The notes beneath the pieces are model-generated. The model did no database searches. It was not told the DNA's origin and was given only the letters and a program-made list of their open reading frames with translations. The position numbers and the translations under genes were made by a program. A DNA stretch of 64,000 nt from Acaryochloris sp. CCMEE 5410 (GTDB lineage Bacteria; Cyanobacteriota; Cyanobacteriia; Thermosynechococcales; Thermosynechococcaceae): NCBI RefSeq assembly GCF_000238775.2, contig NZ_AFEJ02000002.1, forward strand, positions 1,178,001 to 1,242,000, read 5' to 3'. This document shows, in pieces, positions 9,243-58,906 of the stretch (position 1 is its first letter; every line of letters starts with the position of its first letter).

Positions 9243-10408
9243 CAGGGCTGTTTTAAGTTAGCAGCGAAAAAATAATATCGACCCGATTAGCAAGCTTAGT
9301 CATCGCGGTTTTGAGGGATTGATAGTCGTTTAGCCGCAGGATATTAATCCCAATAGTTCTAAGCACTGACCAATTGAGCAGTGCTTGTTCATCTTCGAGT
9401 CGATAATCATCTTCGCCAAAAACAACATCCTTCGGCCAATGCAACCGATTTTCAATGCCCCAATGTTCTCGGACCAGAGATTGCCAATGATGGGGTGAGG
9501 TGGCAGCTGAACTGATGTAATAGGCCGTATTGTGATACTCCTTTCCTTTGCGAGTACCCCATCGTTGGACACAAAGTACAGAGCGAATTGCTGTCCATTC
9601 TTGTAGGGCTATGCCGACAGGCTCATAAACCTGTATACACCGATGTTCATCTCGTCCTCTACTTTGGGCGGAGTGGATGTGCTCAGCCATGGGTTTAAGA
9701 CACTCAAAGTAAGTCTGGAGGTGGTCGTAAAGTCTTCCCTGATTGGATTTGACCGCCACAAGATAGTCGTTACCCGAGGCCACAATCTTCTCAAGTGTTT
9801 TTTTGGGCGTGTAAGGCATCCATGGTAATCAGCAAGCCATCGAGTTGAAGGGTTTCCAACAGTGCCTGCACGACTTTGATTTCGCTATTATCCTCCTGAG
9901 TGAGGGCTTCGAGCTTGAGGGTGATGCCTGCTTCCACCGCAAATAAACTCACCAAGCCCACAAAACGCTGCTTCCCCTTGGCATCTGTCAGCCCCTGACG
10001 AATCCGTTTGCCATCAATGGAGGCTGCATAATTATCGGGAGAGTGAGTCTGGGCTTTCGAGAGCATCCATGCTTCAAATTGGTGGCTCAACGCTTGGAAG
10101 TCAAGCCCCTTCATCACTCGACGAAAGGTACAGTGAGACGGAACTTCGAGGCTCTCAAGCCCCAATAGCTCACTTAAAGGCTGGCGATAATCGCTCACAA
10201 AGGTTTCTAACGGACGGTACCCTTGATATCCAGCAAGCATGCCCATCACCATCAATAGCAACAGCAGCCATAACGGATGAATACGGCCATGGGCACTGCG
10301 GAAATCCGGGACTTGCTTCAAAGTATCGATTAGATGGCTCATCGGTCTCTCTACTGTTGGTCAGTAGAACCATCCTATTTTTTCTAGGAGTAACGTAAAA
10401 CAACCCTG
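9243..10408 (-). mobile_element. ISAs1-family insertion sequence, complete ends
   Basis: The element is 1166 bp. Its ends, CAGGGCTGTTTTAAGTTAG at 9243-9261 and the complement of 10390-10408 (CAGGGTTGTTTTACGTTAC), match at 16 of 19 positions. Both sides are bordered by an identical 10-bp target duplication, so the boundaries are firm and the insertion is fairly recent. The single transposase frame is interrupted by a frameshift, so the copy may not be self-mobile. Confidence 0.93.
9253..10342 (-). pseudogene. ISAs1 family transposase, frameshifted
   Basis: Two overlapping frames make up one transposase. The first (10342 down to 9791, 183 aa) contains PDFRSAHGRIHPLW, SHCTFRRVMKGLD, SIDGKRIRQG and ITMDALHAQ with catalytic Asp residues. 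The second (up to 9819 down to 9253) contains KKTLEKIVASGNDYLVAVKSNQ and REHWGIENRLHW with the catalytic Glu. The switch lies at a run of seven A residues at about 9797-9803. The second frame is reached by losing one A (or gaining two), so a conventional -1 ribosomal slip would not join them. An indel, or transcriptional slippage on the A run, is the likelier explanation. Confidence 0.88.
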
Positions 10409-31521: not shown

Positions 31522-31998
31522 TTAACAACTCGGTGGAGTAGCAATAGTACCACCACCAGGGGCAGGCTGTTCTTCGAGCGTAACACTAGTTGTAGCTAGG
31601 CTACCTAAAACAACATTTGCATTCGTACACCCTGTGATTGCAGTCAAGGTTTCGTTAGTCGGAGTTGCTCTAAACTCAGCTAGCGTTGAATTAGTAGTGC
31701 CAAACGAGTATGAATAGTCATCAGTTGTTAAGGGAATGCCGATCCCTAGTAAATTCATATTATTTGAAAAAGTTGCACTCTCCAATCGGTAAACCTGTTG
31801 TGCTCGGTTAACTGCACCAATTTGACTTTTTGCTGCAGACTGTCGTGATTTATTAGCCTGACCTAGCATAGAAGGCAATGCAACACCAGCTAATATAGCA
31901 ACAATCACAATCGTGACTAATAATTCTATCAGAGTAAAACCCTGAGAATTATTATGCTTCATTAATTTTGACAAGAGTCGAGAATGATAGTGAGACAT
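31522..31998 (-). CDS. type IV pilin-like protein
   Basis: The 158-residue protein has a class III leader with the prepilin peptidase site in NSQG-FTLIELLVTIVIVAILAGVALPS, then an N-terminal alpha helix and a C-terminal domain with one Cys near NANV and a C-terminal Cys (PPSC) likely forming a disulphide (GCTNAN...SC). Cyanobacterial pilins are surface fibres for motility and DNA uptake. It resembles the second pilin (32918-33382) in its first 75 residues, including QSAAKSQIGAVNRAQQVYRLE, but its C-terminal half is different. Confidence 0.93.
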   Translation of the reverse strand: MSHYHSRLLSKLMKHNNSQGFTLIELLVTIVIVAILAGVALPSMLGQANKSRQSAAKSQIGAVNRAQQVYRLESATFSNNMNLLGIGIPLTTDDYSYSFGTTNSTLAEFRATPTNETLTAITGCTNANVVLGSLATTSVTLEEQPAPGGGTIATPPSC

Positions 31999-32917: not shown

Positions 32918-33382
32918 TTAGCAGCCTGCGGCAGGAGCAGCGGCATTACCAGGGTTCTCAGCAATCTCAGAATCAGTAGTACCTGTAGCAGCGTCTACGG
33001 ACACACAACCACGATAGGCAGATAGACCTGAGCCAGTATCAATAGGTACAGCTGTAGTTTCACCTGCAATAGCTGTTGATACAGCAATCGCAATGGTGTA
33101 ATCTTCAGTGCTAGCGTCAGCAATTTGCAAGTCAGCATATGCAGGAGCAAATTGGGGAGCTTCCAATCGGTAAGCTTGCTGGGCACGGTTAACAGCACCC
33201 ACTTGGCTTTGGGCAGCAGATTGTCTTGCTCTATTAGCTTGGTTGAGCATGGAAGGTAGAGCTACAGCAGCCAAAATACCGATGATGATTACAACAACCA
33301 AAAGTTCAATTAGAGTAAAACCTTTGTTGCCTTTCTTATTTGCGAAGTGCTGGATGAGTTTGGCTTGTAGATTAGTCTTCAT
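32918..33382 (-). CDS. pilA: major type IV pilin-like protein
   Basis: The 154-residue protein has the processing site NKG-FTLIELLVVVIIIGILAAVALPS and a C-terminal domain with Cys near YRGC and the C-terminal GC. Length and motif match cyanobacterial PilA. An AGAG-rich stretch precedes the ATG. The leader is 22 residues and contains Gln/Lys-rich sequence, longer than for proteobacterial PilA, as usual in cyanobacteria. It is the upstream member of the pilin pair. Confidence 0.93.
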   Translation of the reverse strand: MKTNLQAKLIQHFANKKGNKGFTLIELLVVVIIIGILAAVALPSMLNQANRARQSAAQSQVGAVNRAQQAYRLEAPQFAPAYADLQIADASTEDYTIAIAVSTAIAGETTAVPIDTGSGLSAYRGCVSVDAATGTTDSEIAENPGNAAAPAAGC

Positions 33383-52617: not shown

Positions 52618-53066
52618 ATGTCGTGTGGTCAACTTCAATCGCGATTGCCCAACACAACATGCCTGGAAGTTGGCCACGCTAGCATTATCCGAATATTCGA
52701 TATCAGGGATAGGGGAAAGCCAAAGGAACATCAGGCACTCTCACTATCCCTATTTTTATTATCAATAAGGGATAAAATACTACAACTGCCAGAATAAACA
52801 GAAGTAAATGGCCAGGAAGCATTAAGATTTATTTAAGCTTTCCACCTCAGCTCTGCGAGACTCCCTCGATCAGGACTGAACAGCTTTACCAGACTATTCT
52901 GTGCCGTCGATTGATAGCGAAACCCCACGAGATACGAATATTATCTTGTCTCCCCCCTTAGACTTGAGGCCAGTTTCCCTGTCCTGTGACCTGGTACCAT
53001 CACTGTTGTCTTCTCCAAAGCTCCTGTGATGGGCCGTTTGAAAAACATACTGTTATTCCTTGGGAA
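52618..53066. other. intergenic region with no supported gene
   Basis: A weak hairpin TATCCCT/AGGGATA (52745-52751 and 52768-52774) could terminate prlC transcription. A 58-codon frame directly after prlC (52618 onward) has no protein-like features and was not called. Nothing else was seen. Confidence 0.35.
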
Positions 53067-54518
53067 ATGTCTCAGTGTCTTAATCCTGAGTGCTTGCACT
53101 CTAATGCCAGTGATAGTACAACCTGTCAACAATGTGGTTGGTCTCTACTCCTAGGCGGGCACTATCGTGCTCTTCACTCCCTGGGAACAGGGGGGTTTTC
53201 AAATACCTTTTCGGCAGTAGATGAGCACCGTTTGCAGTCCCCATGCGTGATCAAGCAGTTCATTCCTCCTCAACTTGATCCAAGCCGGGTCGAAAAATCA
53301 ATCGCTCTTTTTCGCCAAGAAGCATCGATATTAAAAGAACTGGGCAATCATCCTCAAATCCCTTCGTTATTGGCATTCCTAGAACAGGACGGACAGCTAT
53401 ATCTCATCCAAGAATTTATTGAAGGGCAAGATCTCTTTCAAGAAGCCATCGAAAAAGGCCCCTTTAGCGAACAACAGATCCAACAACTGTTTACAGAATT
53501 GCTGCCGATCTTGCAATTTATTCATGAACGACAAGTCGTCCACCGAGATATCAAACCTGGCAATATTCTTCGTCAAGAGAACGGATCCCTTGTATTAATT
53601 GACTTTGGGGGGTCCTTACAATTGGAAGGCTCGTTTCGCCCTGTCACTGGAACACCTGGCTATGCATCCCCAGAACAGCTCAAAGGCCAAGTCGAGGCAG
53701 CTAGCGACTTACATAGCTTGGCGGTCACCGCTATACGCCTCCTGACAGGCTATCTGGCCCAAGAAGACTCAGACCCTTTCGCCAATGCGCAGCAACGGCA
53801 CCAAGTCTGGCATCGCCTCAAGGTCAATGTTAGCCCTGAATTAACGCAAATCTTTGATAATCTTCTCCATCCAGACATTCAACAACGGTATCAGTCAGCC
53901 ACCGAAGTATGGCAAGCCCTCAGTCCCAACGCCAACCTTTCATCTACCCCTTCCCCTAGTCTTCAGACCCTGTCGTCTCCCCTTCAACCCAAAATGACGA
54001 CCTCGGCATCAATCCCTGACCTAAAAAGCGATGTAGGGGCAAATTACACCCATTTAAAAGACTTATTAACCCAGCAAAATTTCGCGGCTGCTGACCAAGA
54101 AACTTGGAATCTGATGCTAAAAATTGCGGGTATGACCACACAAGAGACCCTCAATATTCAGGTGGTTCAGAATTTTCCTCTCCAGGATCTAAAAACTTTA
54201 GATTCTTTGTGGACAGAGTATAGTGGCGGGCACTTTGGATTTTCAGCTCAAAGACAAATCTACCAACGACTCGGTGGTTCTCTAACGTTAGATTATGCCG
54301 TTTGGCAAACCTTTGGGAAGCAAGTCGGTTGGTTTAGTGAGGAGCAATGGCAGGACTATGCCAACTTAAAATTTACCCTCAGTGCACCGATCGGTCACCT
54401 GCCGGCTTGTTTTGCTGATCCCCTTAATCGTCAAGGGGTTGACCGGGGGGTTTGTGGATGGTGGCGCTTAGGATTTGTAACCCTTCTGCATCGTCTGGCA
54501 TCATCAGTTGATGAATGA
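53067..54518 (+). CDS. serine/threonine protein kinase with C-terminal GUN4 domain
   Basis: The 483-residue protein begins with a zinc-ribbon-like C-x4-C..C-x2-C element (CLNPECLHSNASDSTTCQQCG), followed by a complete kinase domain (about 30-295): LGTGGFSNTF, CVIKQF Lys, HRDIKPGN, IDFGGS and PGYASPE. After a Ser/Pro linker comes a GUN4 domain (YTHLKDLLTQQNFAAADQETWNLMLKIAG to the end, with ACFADPLNRQG). GUN4 binds porphyrins and stimulates Mg-chelatase; the fusion may couple tetrapyrrole level to phosphorylation. ATG at 53067 is chosen over the upstream frame starting at 52986. Confidence 0.93.
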   Translation: MSQCLNPECLHSNASDSTTCQQCGWSLLLGGHYRALHSLGTGGFSNTFSAVDEHRLQSPCVIKQFIPPQLDPSRVEKSIALFRQEASILKELGNHPQIPSLLAFLEQDGQLYLIQEFIEGQDLFQEAIEKGPFSEQQIQQLFTELLPILQFIHERQVVHRDIKPGNILRQENGSLVLIDFGGSLQLEGSFRPVTGTPGYASPEQLKGQVEAASDLHSLAVTAIRLLTGYLAQEDSDPFANAQQRHQVWHRLKVNVSPELTQIFDNLLHPDIQQRYQSATEVWQALSPNANLSSTPSPSLQTLSSPLQPKMTTSASIPDLKSDVGANYTHLKDLLTQQNFAAADQETWNLMLKIAGMTTQETLNIQVVQNFPLQDLKTLDSLWTEYSGGHFGFSAQRQIYQRLGGSLTLDYAVWQTFGKQVGWFSEEQWQDYANLKFTLSAPIGHLPACFADPLNRQGVDRGVCGWWRLGFVTLLHRLASSVDE

Positions 54519-54867
54519 ATTCTGCAGAATCTAGACCCTAAATACCTTGAGCGATTACCTCTCTGACATAAAAATTGATTCATTCAAGGATCGATTACTC
54601 GCTTCTTAGAACTGTTATTTACCGATGAAAGATAGTCCAACTTGGGGTTGGTTCAAGGGTGGCATTTTTACAATGGGTATCTCTTCGTTGCATATTATCT
54701 CTGAACATTGGAAAATCACTACAAGGTAAAATTCCACAACACATCTGACTCTTTGTTTTATAAACTGTTTCTACCTTATGAATTAAATAAACCCTTGAAA
54801 TCCAAATTTTGGGACGCTTCCTCTAACGGTTAATTCTTGGCTTACATATGAATGAGGCTATTTTGTG
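54519..54867. other. intergenic region upstream of chemoreceptor
   Basis: No gene was found. The region probably holds the promoter of the MCP-type photoreceptor operon. I saw no clear regulatory motif. Confidence 0.35.
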
Positions 54868-56958
54868 ATGACACATTCTTCTACTCCTTTAGACATCGAT
54901 AGGGCTGGTCAGGATGATCTTTCTGGCAATCAAGATTCATCACCATCGGCTGTCTCTATCCCTCCCATGCAGGACTTAGACGCTGCAGAGCCTACAGCTG
55001 ACCCGTGGAATACGCAAACAGAGACTACCGTTGATGAGGGTGTGGAAGAGGTCACCAGTGGGGTAACGGCTCAAAGTTCACAGTCCGAACATTCAACTTC
55101 AACAACGTCAACCCAATCTTCTAGCTGGGCTGTATCCCCCGGCCCTGAGAAGAATAAAGAGGTTCCGTTTAAAGCTAAAGCCATGTCTCTGGCCTTGGCT
55201 GTCAGTATGTTGCCCGTTCTTGCAGTCGGAACCGTCACCTACTTTAGTGGGCAATTAGTTCAGCAACAAATGACTCAGGAGCGGCAAGCTGGCAATCCAG
55301 ATCTCCAGGCAACCGAACGCTCTATTCAGCAGCAACTCCCTTCCCTATTAATAGGAACGGGCATTACAGCTATTCTTGCCGGTGCGATCGCAGCTTGGTT
55401 AGCCCATCGAGCTACGACTCCCATACTGAAAGCAGTTCAAGTCTCTGATGAAATGCTCCAGCAAATTCGGCCGGGTATGGTGAAACCAGAGACAGCTGAG
55501 ACAGATATTTTAAGCCAGCTAGAACATAATATTCGCAGTATCGAAGGTTATATCCCGGCCTTACTGGCCCAGCAAGATTCAGAAATTGAGCAGTTACAGA
55601 TGCTCAAGTACATCACCAACAAAATTCGCGCCTCTCTCAATGAAGATGATGTTCTCAACACCACCGTGGAAGAAGCTCGCAAAATCATCAAGGCCGATCG
55701 GGTCATCGTCTATGGATTTGATGAAGATTGGTATGGCACGGTGATTGCTGAATCCGTTATCCCAGGCATTGCTAAAGCATTATGGGCAGAAATTAAAGAC
55801 CCCTGTTTTGCCGAAAACTATGTGGAGAAGTATCGCGCAGGGCGGATTCAAGCCATTAATAACGTCCACGAGGCAGGTTTAACGAAATGCCATCTGGCTC
55901 AACTAGAACCCTTTCAAGTCAAAGCCAACTTAGTAGTGCCAATTCTGCGAGAGGAGAAGTTATTTGGTTTATTGATTGCCCATCAATGTACCCAACCCCG
56001 AGTATGGCAAGAGTCAGAAATCAACTTCTTTGCTCAAGTCGCCTCCCAAGTTGGGTTCGCCCTTGACCATGCCCGACTTCTCGTTCAAGTCGATCAAGCC
56101 AATAACAACGCGATGGCCCACACTCAGCAGGCAGCTCAAGACTATGAAATGCTACAGCAGAGAATTTCACAGCTTTCCTTAGAAAGCAATAGCGTGGTGG
56201 AATTATTTGGCACAGATGCCAACATGGCGATCACTAATACCCAAGATCAGATGCATGAGATTGCTGAAGCGGCTGATCAAATTCACGTCATCCTCAATGA
56301 GATTACCCAAACCCAGGAACAAGTGCAGATTGCCACACAAGAAAGTCAAACTGGGATGACCCATACCGTGGACCATTTACAGTCTCTATCCAAATTGGTA
56401 GAAACCGTTGACCAGTCGGTCCATCCCTTACAGCAACCCACCCAACAACTAGGTGAGCTGATCGATTTAATGGGGCATGTGGTGTCTCAAGTCCAGCTGC
56501 AGGCAATGAATGCAGCCCTAGAAGCGGCTCGATCGGGTGCTGCAGGTCAATCTTTTGCTGAGATCGCCGAAAAGGTCCATGGCTTATCTCGGCAATTAGA
56601 TGCAACCCTGACGGATATCAAACCCTTAGTCAGCCATATTCAAACCACCACTCAATCTGTGGGTCAGGAGATGGCTAGTGGGAAAAACGCGATTGCGGTA
56701 GACACCCAAACCTTAGGCAGCACCCAAATCAAGTTGGCTGAATTAAATAGCTTAAATCAACGGGTCTTAGATCTCGTGCAGCAAATTGCTGAAGTCACTA
56801 CAAATCAAGTGGAATTATCGGTGTTAGGTCACAAAACATTGGATCATCTTGCCAACACTACCCTCAGTGCAACAACGCAATCTTCCCAAATTGCAGAAGC
56901 GGTTCATCAGCTCATGGCTACGGTCAATAACGACCTCAACTCGGAAGATTCCTTTTAG
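54868..56958 (+). CDS. PixJ-like methyl-accepting protein with DXCF cyanobacteriochrome GAF domain
   Basis: The 696-residue protein has a Ser/Thr/Gln-rich start, two membrane helices (about 105-128 and 155-180), HAMP-like segment, GAF domain (about 245-415) and MCP signalling domain (430 to end; conserved tip QLQAMNAALEAARSGAAGQSFAEIAEKV). The GAF has Cys313 in DPCF and Cys341 in KCHLAQLE, 28 residues apart, exactly the DXCF-to-canonical-Cys spacing of TePixJ as I remember it (Cys494/Cys522). Both cysteines bind bilin in DXCF photoreceptors, which usually switch blue/green. It would direct phototaxis through type IV pili. ATG at 54868 is chosen over GTG just before. Confidence 0.9.
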   Translation: MTHSSTPLDIDRAGQDDLSGNQDSSPSAVSIPPMQDLDAAEPTADPWNTQTETTVDEGVEEVTSGVTAQSSQSEHSTSTTSTQSSSWAVSPGPEKNKEVPFKAKAMSLALAVSMLPVLAVGTVTYFSGQLVQQQMTQERQAGNPDLQATERSIQQQLPSLLIGTGITAILAGAIAAWLAHRATTPILKAVQVSDEMLQQIRPGMVKPETAETDILSQLEHNIRSIEGYIPALLAQQDSEIEQLQMLKYITNKIRASLNEDDVLNTTVEEARKIIKADRVIVYGFDEDWYGTVIAESVIPGIAKALWAEIKDPCFAENYVEKYRAGRIQAINNVHEAGLTKCHLAQLEPFQVKANLVVPILREEKLFGLLIAHQCTQPRVWQESEINFFAQVASQVGFALDHARLLVQVDQANNNAMAHTQQAAQDYEMLQQRISQLSLESNSVVELFGTDANMAITNTQDQMHEIAEAADQIHVILNEITQTQEQVQIATQESQTGMTHTVDHLQSLSKLVETVDQSVHPLQQPTQQLGELIDLMGHVVSQVQLQAMNAALEAARSGAAGQSFAEIAEKVHGLSRQLDATLTDIKPLVSHIQTTTQSVGQEMASGKNAIAVDTQTLGSTQIKLAELNSLNQRVLDLVQQIAEVTTNQVELSVLGHKTLDHLANTTLSATTQSSQIAEAVHQLMATVNNDLNSEDSF

Positions 56959-57085
56959 GCCTAGTTCATGACTCTGATAACGTTCCATCCTTTGCTTTGT
57001 CTTGTCTTCAGTCCCATCTTATTTGTGTTGGGACTCTCCCCTCTAATCTGCCAATCAGTTCATGACCTATACAAGGAAGCCAGAC

Positions 57086-58906
57086 ATGGCTAATGAGACG
57101 CCGCTGCGCGATCCTGCTTATCAACTGTTTTTTCAAGAAGCATTAGAACTTTTACTGCAGATTGATACGACCTTACAAGAGGTGCTGCAAATTCCGAGTA
57201 AAACATCCATCGATTTTTTACTGGAGATGGCGCAAATCCTATATGAGGGAGCCCAATCCCTCAATCTCACTCAGTTAGCCCATCAGGTCCAAATCTTTTC
57301 GAGCTTAATGCTGAACTTACAGCAAGATCCCTTAGGAACGACTCCAGAGGATGCATATCAGTTGAGGCAAGCTTTTAAAGAGATGCAAACCGCTTTAGAG
57401 GCTTATATCTCTGGTCCACCTGTCTTAGATATGTCTTCAAACCTCGATGTTTCTTCAGAACGAGAGTCTTCTTCCCATGGGTCCATTGCTTTAGACGTCG
57501 CAGAAGATGAGTTAGCCACCAATGGTAATTTAATGCTGCCCGCAGGGGGGAGTGATGTTACCTCTTTAATCTTGATCTCTGATGTCGCGGAAATTTTGGA
57601 TCAGCTGCAGCAGGTCTTGGTTAATCCCCAGGTATTTGACCTGGCAGCCGAGTTAAAAGCCTTGACAGAAGCATTATTGGGTTGGGGAGAAGTCTTAGAG
57701 CTCAATGAACTGACCACGATTGCTCAATCGACCTTAGACATGTTGGATAGCAATCCCCAATCTGCGATTTCGATTGGCCAATTATCTTTGGCTGGCTTTC
57801 GAGCCGCCCATAAAACGGCTTTACAAGCATTGCAGGCTGACTCAGGTTCGCAAAATGCTGACCATCACCCACAAAGCTCGAAGAAGCTGGATCTTCCATC
57901 GAGTCCCACGGCCATGTCTCCCATGGCTGCCGAAATTCCCACTGCTGAGTCATTATCAGCGTCAGATGAGGTGATTTTAAATGCCACTCAGTTATTTGTC
58001 TGGCAGCAAGAAAGGCTGCTCTTTACGATTCCGTCAGAGGCGGTGGCAGAAATCCTCATTCCCAGAGCTGAACAGTTAATGGGCAATGAGCATCAGCGTT
58101 GTTTAAGTTGGCAGCAGCAGTTTATCCCGATTCATCCATTGGGGCATCTGCTCAATCGAGGGGAGTCTCATTGGCCCCGACTCACTGCTGCGGTCTTGCC
58201 TGGACGTGGAGCAAATAGTGCGACGGTATTTGGCAGTTCTCCCTTGATCATTATTCATCAAGGGGGCCAAACCCTGGCCTTAGAAGTTGAAATCACCCGC
58301 TTAGTGACGGAGTCAGAGCTGGTTCTGCAAATTCCGGAAGGACAGATCCATTGTCCTTATTTTTCTGGCGAGACGGCCTTGGAGTCGGAGCAGTACGGAG
58401 TGGTTGATATTGCCGCCCTGCTCAATGAAATGTTGCATTTAAGTCCCCTGCCAATGCCCAAGGCAGTAAGGCTATCGAGTCCAGCAGTATCTGTCAGTCT
58501 AAAGCCCAAACGCCCTCCCAAAATTTCGAAGAAAACGCGATCGCAAACCACAATACTCGTAGTTGACGATTCCAAAATGGTGCGCATGATGGTTAGCACG
58601 GCGCTGCAATCAGCCGGCTACGACGTCCTTGAGGCGGCTGATGGTCAATTGGCCATCGAACAGGTAGAGCGGGCAGATATTCAGCTGATTATTTGTGACG
58701 TAGAAATGCCCAATATGAATGGGTTTGAGTTTCTAGAATATCGGTGCCGTCAGCCAGCCATAATGAACCTGCCAGTGGTGATGCTAAGCACTTGCAATAG
58801 TGACCAGCACCGGCAATTAGCGACGACCTTGGGCGCTAATGCTTATCTGACAAAACCTTACGATGAATCCAATCTCTTAGCCACCTTACAAGCACTGGTA
58901 GGCTAG
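57086..58906 (+). CDS. CheA/PixL-like protein with CheW and receiver domains but no kinase domain
   Basis: The 606-residue protein has two Hpt-like helical sections at the N-terminus, a linker, a CheW-like domain (about 310-460) and a receiver domain (ILVVDDSKMVR, LIICDVEMPNMNGFEF, LTKPYDE). The first Hpt-like helix reads MAQILYEGAQSLNL, with Gln where His would be phosphorylated. No HATPase motifs (N-box, G1, G2) are present. It therefore acts as an adaptor or sink, like CheV, and not a kinase. ATG at 57086 with AAGGA fits better than 57062. It is probably co-transcribed with the PixJ-like receptor. Confidence 0.88.
   Translation: MANETPLRDPAYQLFFQEALELLLQIDTTLQEVLQIPSKTSIDFLLEMAQILYEGAQSLNLTQLAHQVQIFSSLMLNLQQDPLGTTPEDAYQLRQAFKEMQTALEAYISGPPVLDMSSNLDVSSERESSSHGSIALDVAEDELATNGNLMLPAGGSDVTSLILISDVAEILDQLQQVLVNPQVFDLAAELKALTEALLGWGEVLELNELTTIAQSTLDMLDSNPQSAISIGQLSLAGFRAAHKTALQALQADSGSQNADHHPQSSKKLDLPSSPTAMSPMAAEIPTAESLSASDEVILNATQLFVWQQERLLFTIPSEAVAEILIPRAEQLMGNEHQRCLSWQQQFIPIHPLGHLLNRGESHWPRLTAAVLPGRGANSATVFGSSPLIIIHQGGQTLALEVEITRLVTESELVLQIPEGQIHCPYFSGETALESEQYGVVDIAALLNEMLHLSPLPMPKAVRLSSPAVSVSLKPKRPPKISKKTRSQTTILVVDDSKMVRMMVSTALQSAGYDVLEAADGQLAIEQVERADIQLIICDVEMPNMNGFEFLEYRCRQPAIMNLPVVMLSTCNSDQHRQLATTLGANAYLTKPYDESNLLATLQALVG

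Follow-up and report, generated by a model that had tools for sequence, protein, structure and literature searches.

A cyanobacteriochrome chemoreceptor of Acaryochloris is paired with a conserved kinase-less CheA-like protein, a probable receptor-coupling adaptor

In the PixJ–PixL (tax1) system of Synechocystis, and with TePixJ of Thermosynechococcus, the gene of a methyl-accepting chemotaxis protein (MCP) with a DXCF cyanobacteriochrome GAF domain is followed by the gene of a hybrid CheA-type protein; the gene content of tax1 is given in PMC5812497. CheA itself is usually defined through its kinase: according to a survey of its architectures, all CheA homologues have HATPase_c, and CheA3 of R. 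sphaeroides is a unique case (PMC10782961). The window analysed here is a stretch of 64,000 nucleotides from contig NZ_AFEJ02000002.1 of Acaryochloris sp. CCMEE 5410 (contig C2 of the 8.09 Mb source genome, labelled G000). As in the systems above, it carries a PixJ-type MCP gene with one DXCF cyanobacteriochrome GAF domain (54865-56958, 697 aa) and, 103 bp downstream on the same + strand, a gene for a CheA-like protein (57062-58906, 614 aa). The lineage of this CheA-like protein has lost the kinase and, mostly, the phospho-accepting His of the P1 domain. From sequence comparison, we argue that the protein is a former hybrid CheA of the PixL type that now probably couples to the receptor without a kinase, as an adaptor that functions like CheV, and that the light-sensing pathway appears to be rewired, not broken.

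The ORF, Pfam matches and alignments divide the CheA-like protein into two helical Hpt-like bundles, a CheW-like domain and a receiver. When compared with hybrid CheAs, it matched at both ends: residues ~10-300 correspond to CheA N-termini, and residues ~306-613 to the CheW and receiver C-termini, while ~500-600 residues comprising the dimerisation and kinase parts are missing from the middle. Because the match is split in this way, we argue for descent from CheA. The split-match coordinates and the kinase query place the site at which full-length relatives carry the additional ~500-600 residues (dimerisation, kinase) in a linker at 57842-57973 (+). A CheA kinase query matched 90 of the 107 open reading frames (ORFs) that have a CheW-like region; the 17 that it did not match were the window protein, its relatives (several of them twice, from overlapping loci) and some contig fragments. 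With neither HATPase_c nor H-kinase_dim regions, the window protein is not a CheA kinase in the sense of the survey, which found HATPase_c in all homologues (PMC10782961); if it works, it would do so as an adaptor derived from CheA.

The first bundle (57104-57412, +) is P1-like, with four helices over residues 18-117 in the AlphaFold2 model, but has Gln58 (57233-57235) where the phospho-accepting His would be expected. This His was present in 21/21 aligned full-length CheA N-termini, which read RAAHSIKGGA or similar where the window protein reads EMAQILYEGA. This region is present in 11 kinase-less proteins, and 9 of them have Gln at the site; those of Nostoc sp. 106C and of genome G057 are the exceptions. 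The second Hpt-like helical bundle (57557-57841, +; alignment and AlphaFold2 model) has no His either, but as full-length CheA rows also lack it there, this is not a loss. The full-length AlphaFold2 model, built from six rows, was poor overall (pLDDT 57), and only its helical bundles, with block means of ~72-89, were taken into account.

Pfam searches of the CheA-like protein, asked to E 10, returned Response_reg only, although the Pfam filters discard most weak matches even at this setting. Similarly, all of the NCBIfam matches listed (25 of 96) fell on the receiver by position, as did the best 60 of 302 phmmer matches of the whole protein to the PDB. The receiver (58547-58900, +; Pfam 3.5e-26) has an intact acid pocket (Asp502, Asp503, Asp546, Ser576 and Lys598), and among the receivers of 12 kinase-less proteins the phospho-accepting Asp is kept in 12/12, the Asp-Asp pair in 11/12 and the Lys in 10/12. 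The assignment of the CheW-like (P5) domain (57974-58435, +) comes from homology and modelling. Residues ~305-613 align with CheA C-termini, including that of a CheA of the same genome (C2:1112587-1113465) that holds a Pfam CheW match, and the homologue in genome G167 has Pfam CheW (E 1.5e-8) and Hpt matches. Moreover, AlphaFold2 modelling of residues 285-614 from 38 rows (mean pLDDT 79.6) gave a barrel, and the Foldseek matches of this model include two chains of the E. coli core signalling unit, 6s1k_A and 8c5v_A, at ranks 15 and 26. The Foldseek list gives no aligned ranges for these chains; we attribute them to the CheW-like barrel, since the two entries presumably contain no receiver. The VIA-align list held receivers only and is uninformative on this part. 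CheV is a CheW fused to a receiver, and the window protein likewise has a CheW-like domain followed by a receiver with an intact pocket, and no kinase. A preliminary description of the locus had named CheW and receiver domains, the missing kinase core and the Gln in place of His at the first Hpt-like site, and all of these are borne out, the receiver by Pfam and the CheW part by homologues and model instead of Pfam.

The ORF of the receptor starts at GTG 54865, with an ATG one codon on (54868), so that cysteine numbers shift by one depending on the start. It has two hydrophobic stretches, seen by eye (residues ~107-127 and ~161-180), and Pfam placed GAF at residues 261-400 and the best stretch of MCPsignal at 509-650; its PF00015 score of 58.9 bits is above the cut-off of 34.6, even though the signalling tip has diverged. 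The GAF photosensory domain (55612-56085, +) is TePixJ-like: in phmmer its best solved relatives were TePixJ structures (3vv4, 2m7u and 4fof, gap-free over query positions 10-155), and the alignment to 3vv4_A (E 2.1e-46, no gaps) set DPCF over DPCF and CHL over CHL. Counted from the GTG, Cys314 (DPCF, 55804-55806) and Cys342 (KCHL, 55888-55890) are 28 residues apart, the spacing of TePixJ that had been pointed out earlier with the numbers 313 and 341, counted from the ATG. Both cysteines are kept at this distance in the window MCP and in 5 other MCPs of the genus, by which we mean seven genomes, G000-G006, grouped in one genus. The GAF domain is among the best-conserved parts of the receptor (77-93% identity between the window and its genus orthologues), and the source genome encodes one bilin reductase (PF05996, E 9.4e-74). 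A blue/green-type DXCF photocycle is expected, in agreement with the preliminary description. Hasegawa et al. reportedly described DXCF cyanobacteriochromes of A. marina in 2018. The surprise that such sensing had been held to present in an organism tuned to far-red light is weak, because the genome has two more proteins with two DXCF GAFs each, and because a DXCF cyanobacteriochrome of A. marina, AM1_6305g1, is in print (PMC11284453).

The receptor also differs from its kinase-partnered relatives at the hairpin tip, SQVQLQAMNAALEAARSGAAGQSFAEIAEKV (56461-56616, +). We compared the tips of MCPs that directly precede a CheA-like gene, placed by hidden Markov model and with identical tips collapsed, which leaves out 36 MCP rows that have no CheA next to them. 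The window tip and 11 others adjoining kinase-less proteins were set against 53 adjoining kinase-bearing CheAs, a set in which row L124 is from Chloroflexi and row L135 is badly aligned; positions are given in Tsr numbering. Position 378 is Leu in 53/53 kinase-partnered tips, whereas it is Gln or Lys in 11/12 kinase-less-partnered ones. Gly395 and Val398 are each present in 52/53 of the former and in 1/12 of the latter, and the sole exception on the kinase-less side at all three positions is G057. Positions 381, 385 and 388 are each kept in 11/12 kinase-less-partnered tips. Judged from these alignments, the receptor and its CheA-like partner have changed together.

The arrangement is conserved. 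A Ser/Thr kinase (STK) gene, the MCP gene and the kinase-less CheA gene occur in identical order in 6/7 genus genomes, with a partner identity of 57-78%, and the orthologous frames are uninterrupted, with no internal stop codons and the same short form in six assemblies. The seventh genome, G001, yielded no flanking peptidase gene; the locus may therefore be unassembled, and its absence was not counted as a loss, although the 99% complete genome G007 is likewise without the flanking peptidase gene. The ratio of non-synonymous to synonymous change (dN/dS), computed region by region for the window against five orthologues, was low wherever it could be estimated. The two Hpt-like bundles gave 0.06-0.25 and the CheW-like part 0.08-0.13; the values for the GAF and the tip region were 0.03-0.11 and 0.03-0.14. 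Constraint was looser in the linkers, at the N-terminus of the MCP and, where the pairs were more distant, at its end. Given the pair in 6/7 genus genomes, its constant order and the low dN/dS, neither decay nor an assembly gap is a likely account of these sequences. The preliminary description had spoken of an incomplete or rewired pathway; rewiring fits, whereas incompleteness is not supported, given the 6/7 genus genomes, dN/dS of 0.03-0.25 where estimable and relatives in other genera.

In our named collection, the closest relatives of the window CheA-like protein are those of Acaryochloris (L051-L053) and of an Acaryochloridaceae genome (L054). Further kinase-less members adjoin an MCP in Nostoc sp. 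106C (L055), G167 (L192), G017 (L138) and G014 (L136 and L224), and the kinase-less protein of G019 begins at a contig end. Such proteins are possibly undercounted: for most genomes the scoring covered only the best 13 candidates, and G017 escapes the N-terminal query. At L224:4621-5919, G014 encodes a kinase-less relative with no receiver, which adjoins an MCP with three DXCF GAFs and a gene for an STK with a GUN4 domain (STK-GUN4). In a 110-row tree of the CheW–receiver region, which carried long-branch warnings, 12 of the 13 kinase-less proteins fell into one group (99/98) that also took in one long-branched kinase-bearing row (X_L049_1); that of G057 stood separate. A 56-row tree, from which 9 long or doubtful rows were dropped (including the kinase-less G057 and G014b) and whose 45 other rows were random, placed the remaining 11 kinase-less proteins on one side of a branch (98/98). 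Within the kinase-less group, the protein of Nostoc 106C, in which the P1 His is still present, lies closest to the kinase-bearing rows (94/81); this suggests an order of losses, first the kinase and then the P1 His. The CheA-like protein of G057 (L139:2377-4164, 595 aa) was not matched by the kinase query, apparently an independent loss, and an MCP is also nearby.

If the window protein is an adaptor, its CheW-like domain would dock onto the altered MCP tip, and blue/green photoconversion of the GAF domain would alter the docked complex. With no autophosphorylation, the signal could then be relayed in the manner of CheV, via the receiver, phosphorylated by another kinase, and via the inert Hpt bundles; the conserved upstream STK-GUN4 is the leading candidate for a third member of this complex or pathway. 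A conserved lineage that keeps the receptor-binding part and the receptor would demonstrate that a chemoreceptor can operate through a kinase-free partner. The three genes make a small testable system, and the search for the output of the light receptor shifts elsewhere.

Several observations weigh against the adaptor. The CheW-like domain of the window protein lies below Pfam detection even at E 10. For the receiver, dN/dS could not be estimated in any of the five comparisons, because synonymous sites were saturated, and its non-synonymous differences were 0.05-0.17 per site. The association between tip change and kinase loss may reflect a single shared history and not repeated events, since the eleven partners other than that of G057 form one clade; in G057, moreover, a kinase-less CheA-like protein with a P1 His occurs with a canonical tip, beside PatA- and CheY-like genes. 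The receiver is absent from one form in G014, and its Lys is replaced by Ile in G017 and G019. Finally, Nostoc 106C and G167, both outside the family, have no STK-GUN4 alongside.

Among the alternatives, the one that survives best, though we consider it unlikely, is that the function is split in trans: the window pair would join the arrays of a CheA encoded elsewhere, which would phosphorylate the receiver of the window protein or a CheY. The preliminary description had placed the real CheA elsewhere, and there are indeed five CheA genes elsewhere in the genome (L131-L135). However, each has an MCP in its own operon, none is adjacent to the window pair, and we found no link from any of the five to the window receptor. 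Most of the five clusters also hold CheY-like, CheW-like and PatA-like genes, the last assigned by size and a receiver match alone. The intact receiver pocket would suit phosphorylation in trans, and R. sphaeroides CheA3/CheA4 offer a precedent for a CheA with a non-functional kinase that works with another CheA; in CheA3, though, the P1 His is phosphorylated, where the window protein has Gln (PMC10782961). Mixed receptor assemblies are conceivable, because tip residues 381, 385 and 388 are each kept in 11/12 kinase-less-partnered tips, but the tip is changed precisely where 52-53 of the 53 kinase-partnered MCPs are fixed. The divergent cluster L135 (G000 C2:895000-914000) has two successive MCP-like genes and a CheA with a weak CheW match.

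Nor, at the cut-offs used, does the rest of the genome provide a second receptor of this kind. It has 27 cyanobacteriochrome-like GAF matches (E 1e-8 or better, some partial) and seven Pfam MCP matches, and the window MCP is the sole protein with both at these cut-offs. The DXCF motif was found in none of the MCPs of the five CheA clusters, and none of these MCPs is among the 27 GAF matches. As only one of the 27 GAF matches lies in a Pfam MCP, the only bilin-type chemoreceptor of the genome, at these cut-offs, is the one with a kinase-less CheA. The two other proteins with two DXCF GAFs each, L172:4366-6798 (C2) and L173:5221-7629 (C6), are orphans with a PixJ-like N-terminus and an eroded signalling hairpin. 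They are not in the PF00015 list of the genome, a scan of L173 found no Pfam MCP domain, and no ORF neighbouring either of them matched the receiver or CheA kinase queries.

Still less well placed is a second alternative, in which the histidine kinase was exchanged for a Ser/Thr kinase: the receptor and the His-less CheA would control STK-GUN4, the three forming one light- and pigment-sensing unit with a Ser/Thr pathway that also reads tetrapyrrole supply. As this is a special form of the adaptor reading, the likelihoods that we attach to the two overlap. The STK gene (52986-54518, +) encodes a protein kinase with a C-terminal GUN4 domain (Pfam Pkinase 3.2e-40, GUN4 1.8e-39) and is the conserved upstream neighbour of the MCP gene. 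GUN4 is a tetrapyrrole-binding family, and this part of the protein matches 1z3x (E 3.8e-17) and Gun4 1y6i (E 1.2e-13); in this reading the fused kinase may also sense tetrapyrroles. The kinase Lys, HRD and DFG are invariant in 7/7 aligned orthologues. The gene lies directly upstream of the MCP gene in the 6 genus genomes, as well as in G014 (100 bp) and G019 (101 bp; here the kinase-less CheA is on a different contig from the STK–MCP pair); at a spacing of 242-346 bp in Acaryochloris, co-transcription is uncertain.

The distribution of STK-GUN4 follows that of the kinase-less CheA. An orthologue (E 5.6e-145 or better, with no other family match reaching 1e-70) is present in 8/29 family genomes, all of which belong to the 9 in which kinase-less CheA was found, and in 0/20 of the remaining ones. 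The MCP of the ninth genome, G017, extends past a contig end, so the contig does not include its upstream neighbour. The co-occurrence gives a Fisher p of 2e-6, uncorrected for relatedness, and this value is overstated, because 6/9 of the genomes are of one genus and the absence of kinase-less CheA was judged from best candidates; G001, whose locus may be unassembled, is among the 20. Outside the family, the clade members with no STK-GUN4 neighbour tell against the exchange: in Nostoc 106C, the Ser/Thr kinase encoded two genes upstream carries no GUN4, and of the two upstream genes scanned in G167, neither is a kinase. Taken together, these observations make STK a possible output of the kinase-less CheA; the exchange itself we put forward tentatively.

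That the pair is a relic, left over from a slowly decaying pix operon and no longer signalling, is very doubtful. The losses of the kinase and of the P1 His would fit it, and so would the position of the related L172 and L173 of the same genome outside the Pfam MCP matches. The surroundings of the pair also agree with decay, as none of the Pfam CheW matches found across the genome is close to the pair and no ORF neighbouring the five other genus loci, where cheW was not searched, matched the receiver part of the query; within those searches, the patA, cheY and cheW genes of a PixGHIJL operon are not in the cluster. Against decay, however, stand the low dN/dS wherever it could be estimated in the GAF, tip, CheW-like and Hpt-like regions, the order kept in six genomes and the lack of internal stops. 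Finally, a contig or annotation error that removed the kinase, including the earlier suggestion of a neighbouring kinase gene lost in assembly, is next to impossible, as nothing was found in its favour, six assemblies share the short form in an uninterrupted frame, the two window genes are just 103 bp apart, and STK, MCP and kinase-less CheA keep one order in five other assemblies.

A promoter and terminator scan gave no clear excess above shuffled sequences, and the peptide patterns had zero matches in the viral collection. Elsewhere in the window, two ORFs on the - strand (31522-31998 and 32918-33382) have type IV pilin-like N-termini (GFTLIELLV) and were named from this motif alone, and two overlapping ORFs in different frames (9253-10342, -) look by eye like an IS transposase, perhaps broken. 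Among titles and abstract openings of the open-licence literature, we recognised no description of such a kinase-less CheA or of a link to an STK.

The window locus thus resembles known systems in part. Its GAF domain has TePixJ as the closest solved structure, and its receptor shares genus and GAF type with the A. marina DXCF cyanobacteriochromes (AM1_6305g1). Unlike tax1, it has no PixG- or PixH-like receiver gene and no PixI-like CheW gene beside the pair in the window genome; its CheA is without dimerisation domain, kinase and P1 His, the MCP tip is altered, and an STK-GUN4 gene lies upstream. As described in PMC10782961, R. sphaeroides CheA3 is, like the window protein, a CheA homologue that lacks a functional kinase and retains Hpt and CheW parts, but it keeps a degenerate kinase region and a phosphorylatable P1 His, and has its partner kinase in the operon. 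In the window protein, the kinase region is excised and the His is replaced by Gln; it carries a receiver, and there is no CheA kinase gene next to it. With CheV, to which we compare it by description only, it shares a CheW-like domain followed by a receiver, without a kinase; unlike CheV, it matches CheA at both ends and begins with two Hpt-like bundles.

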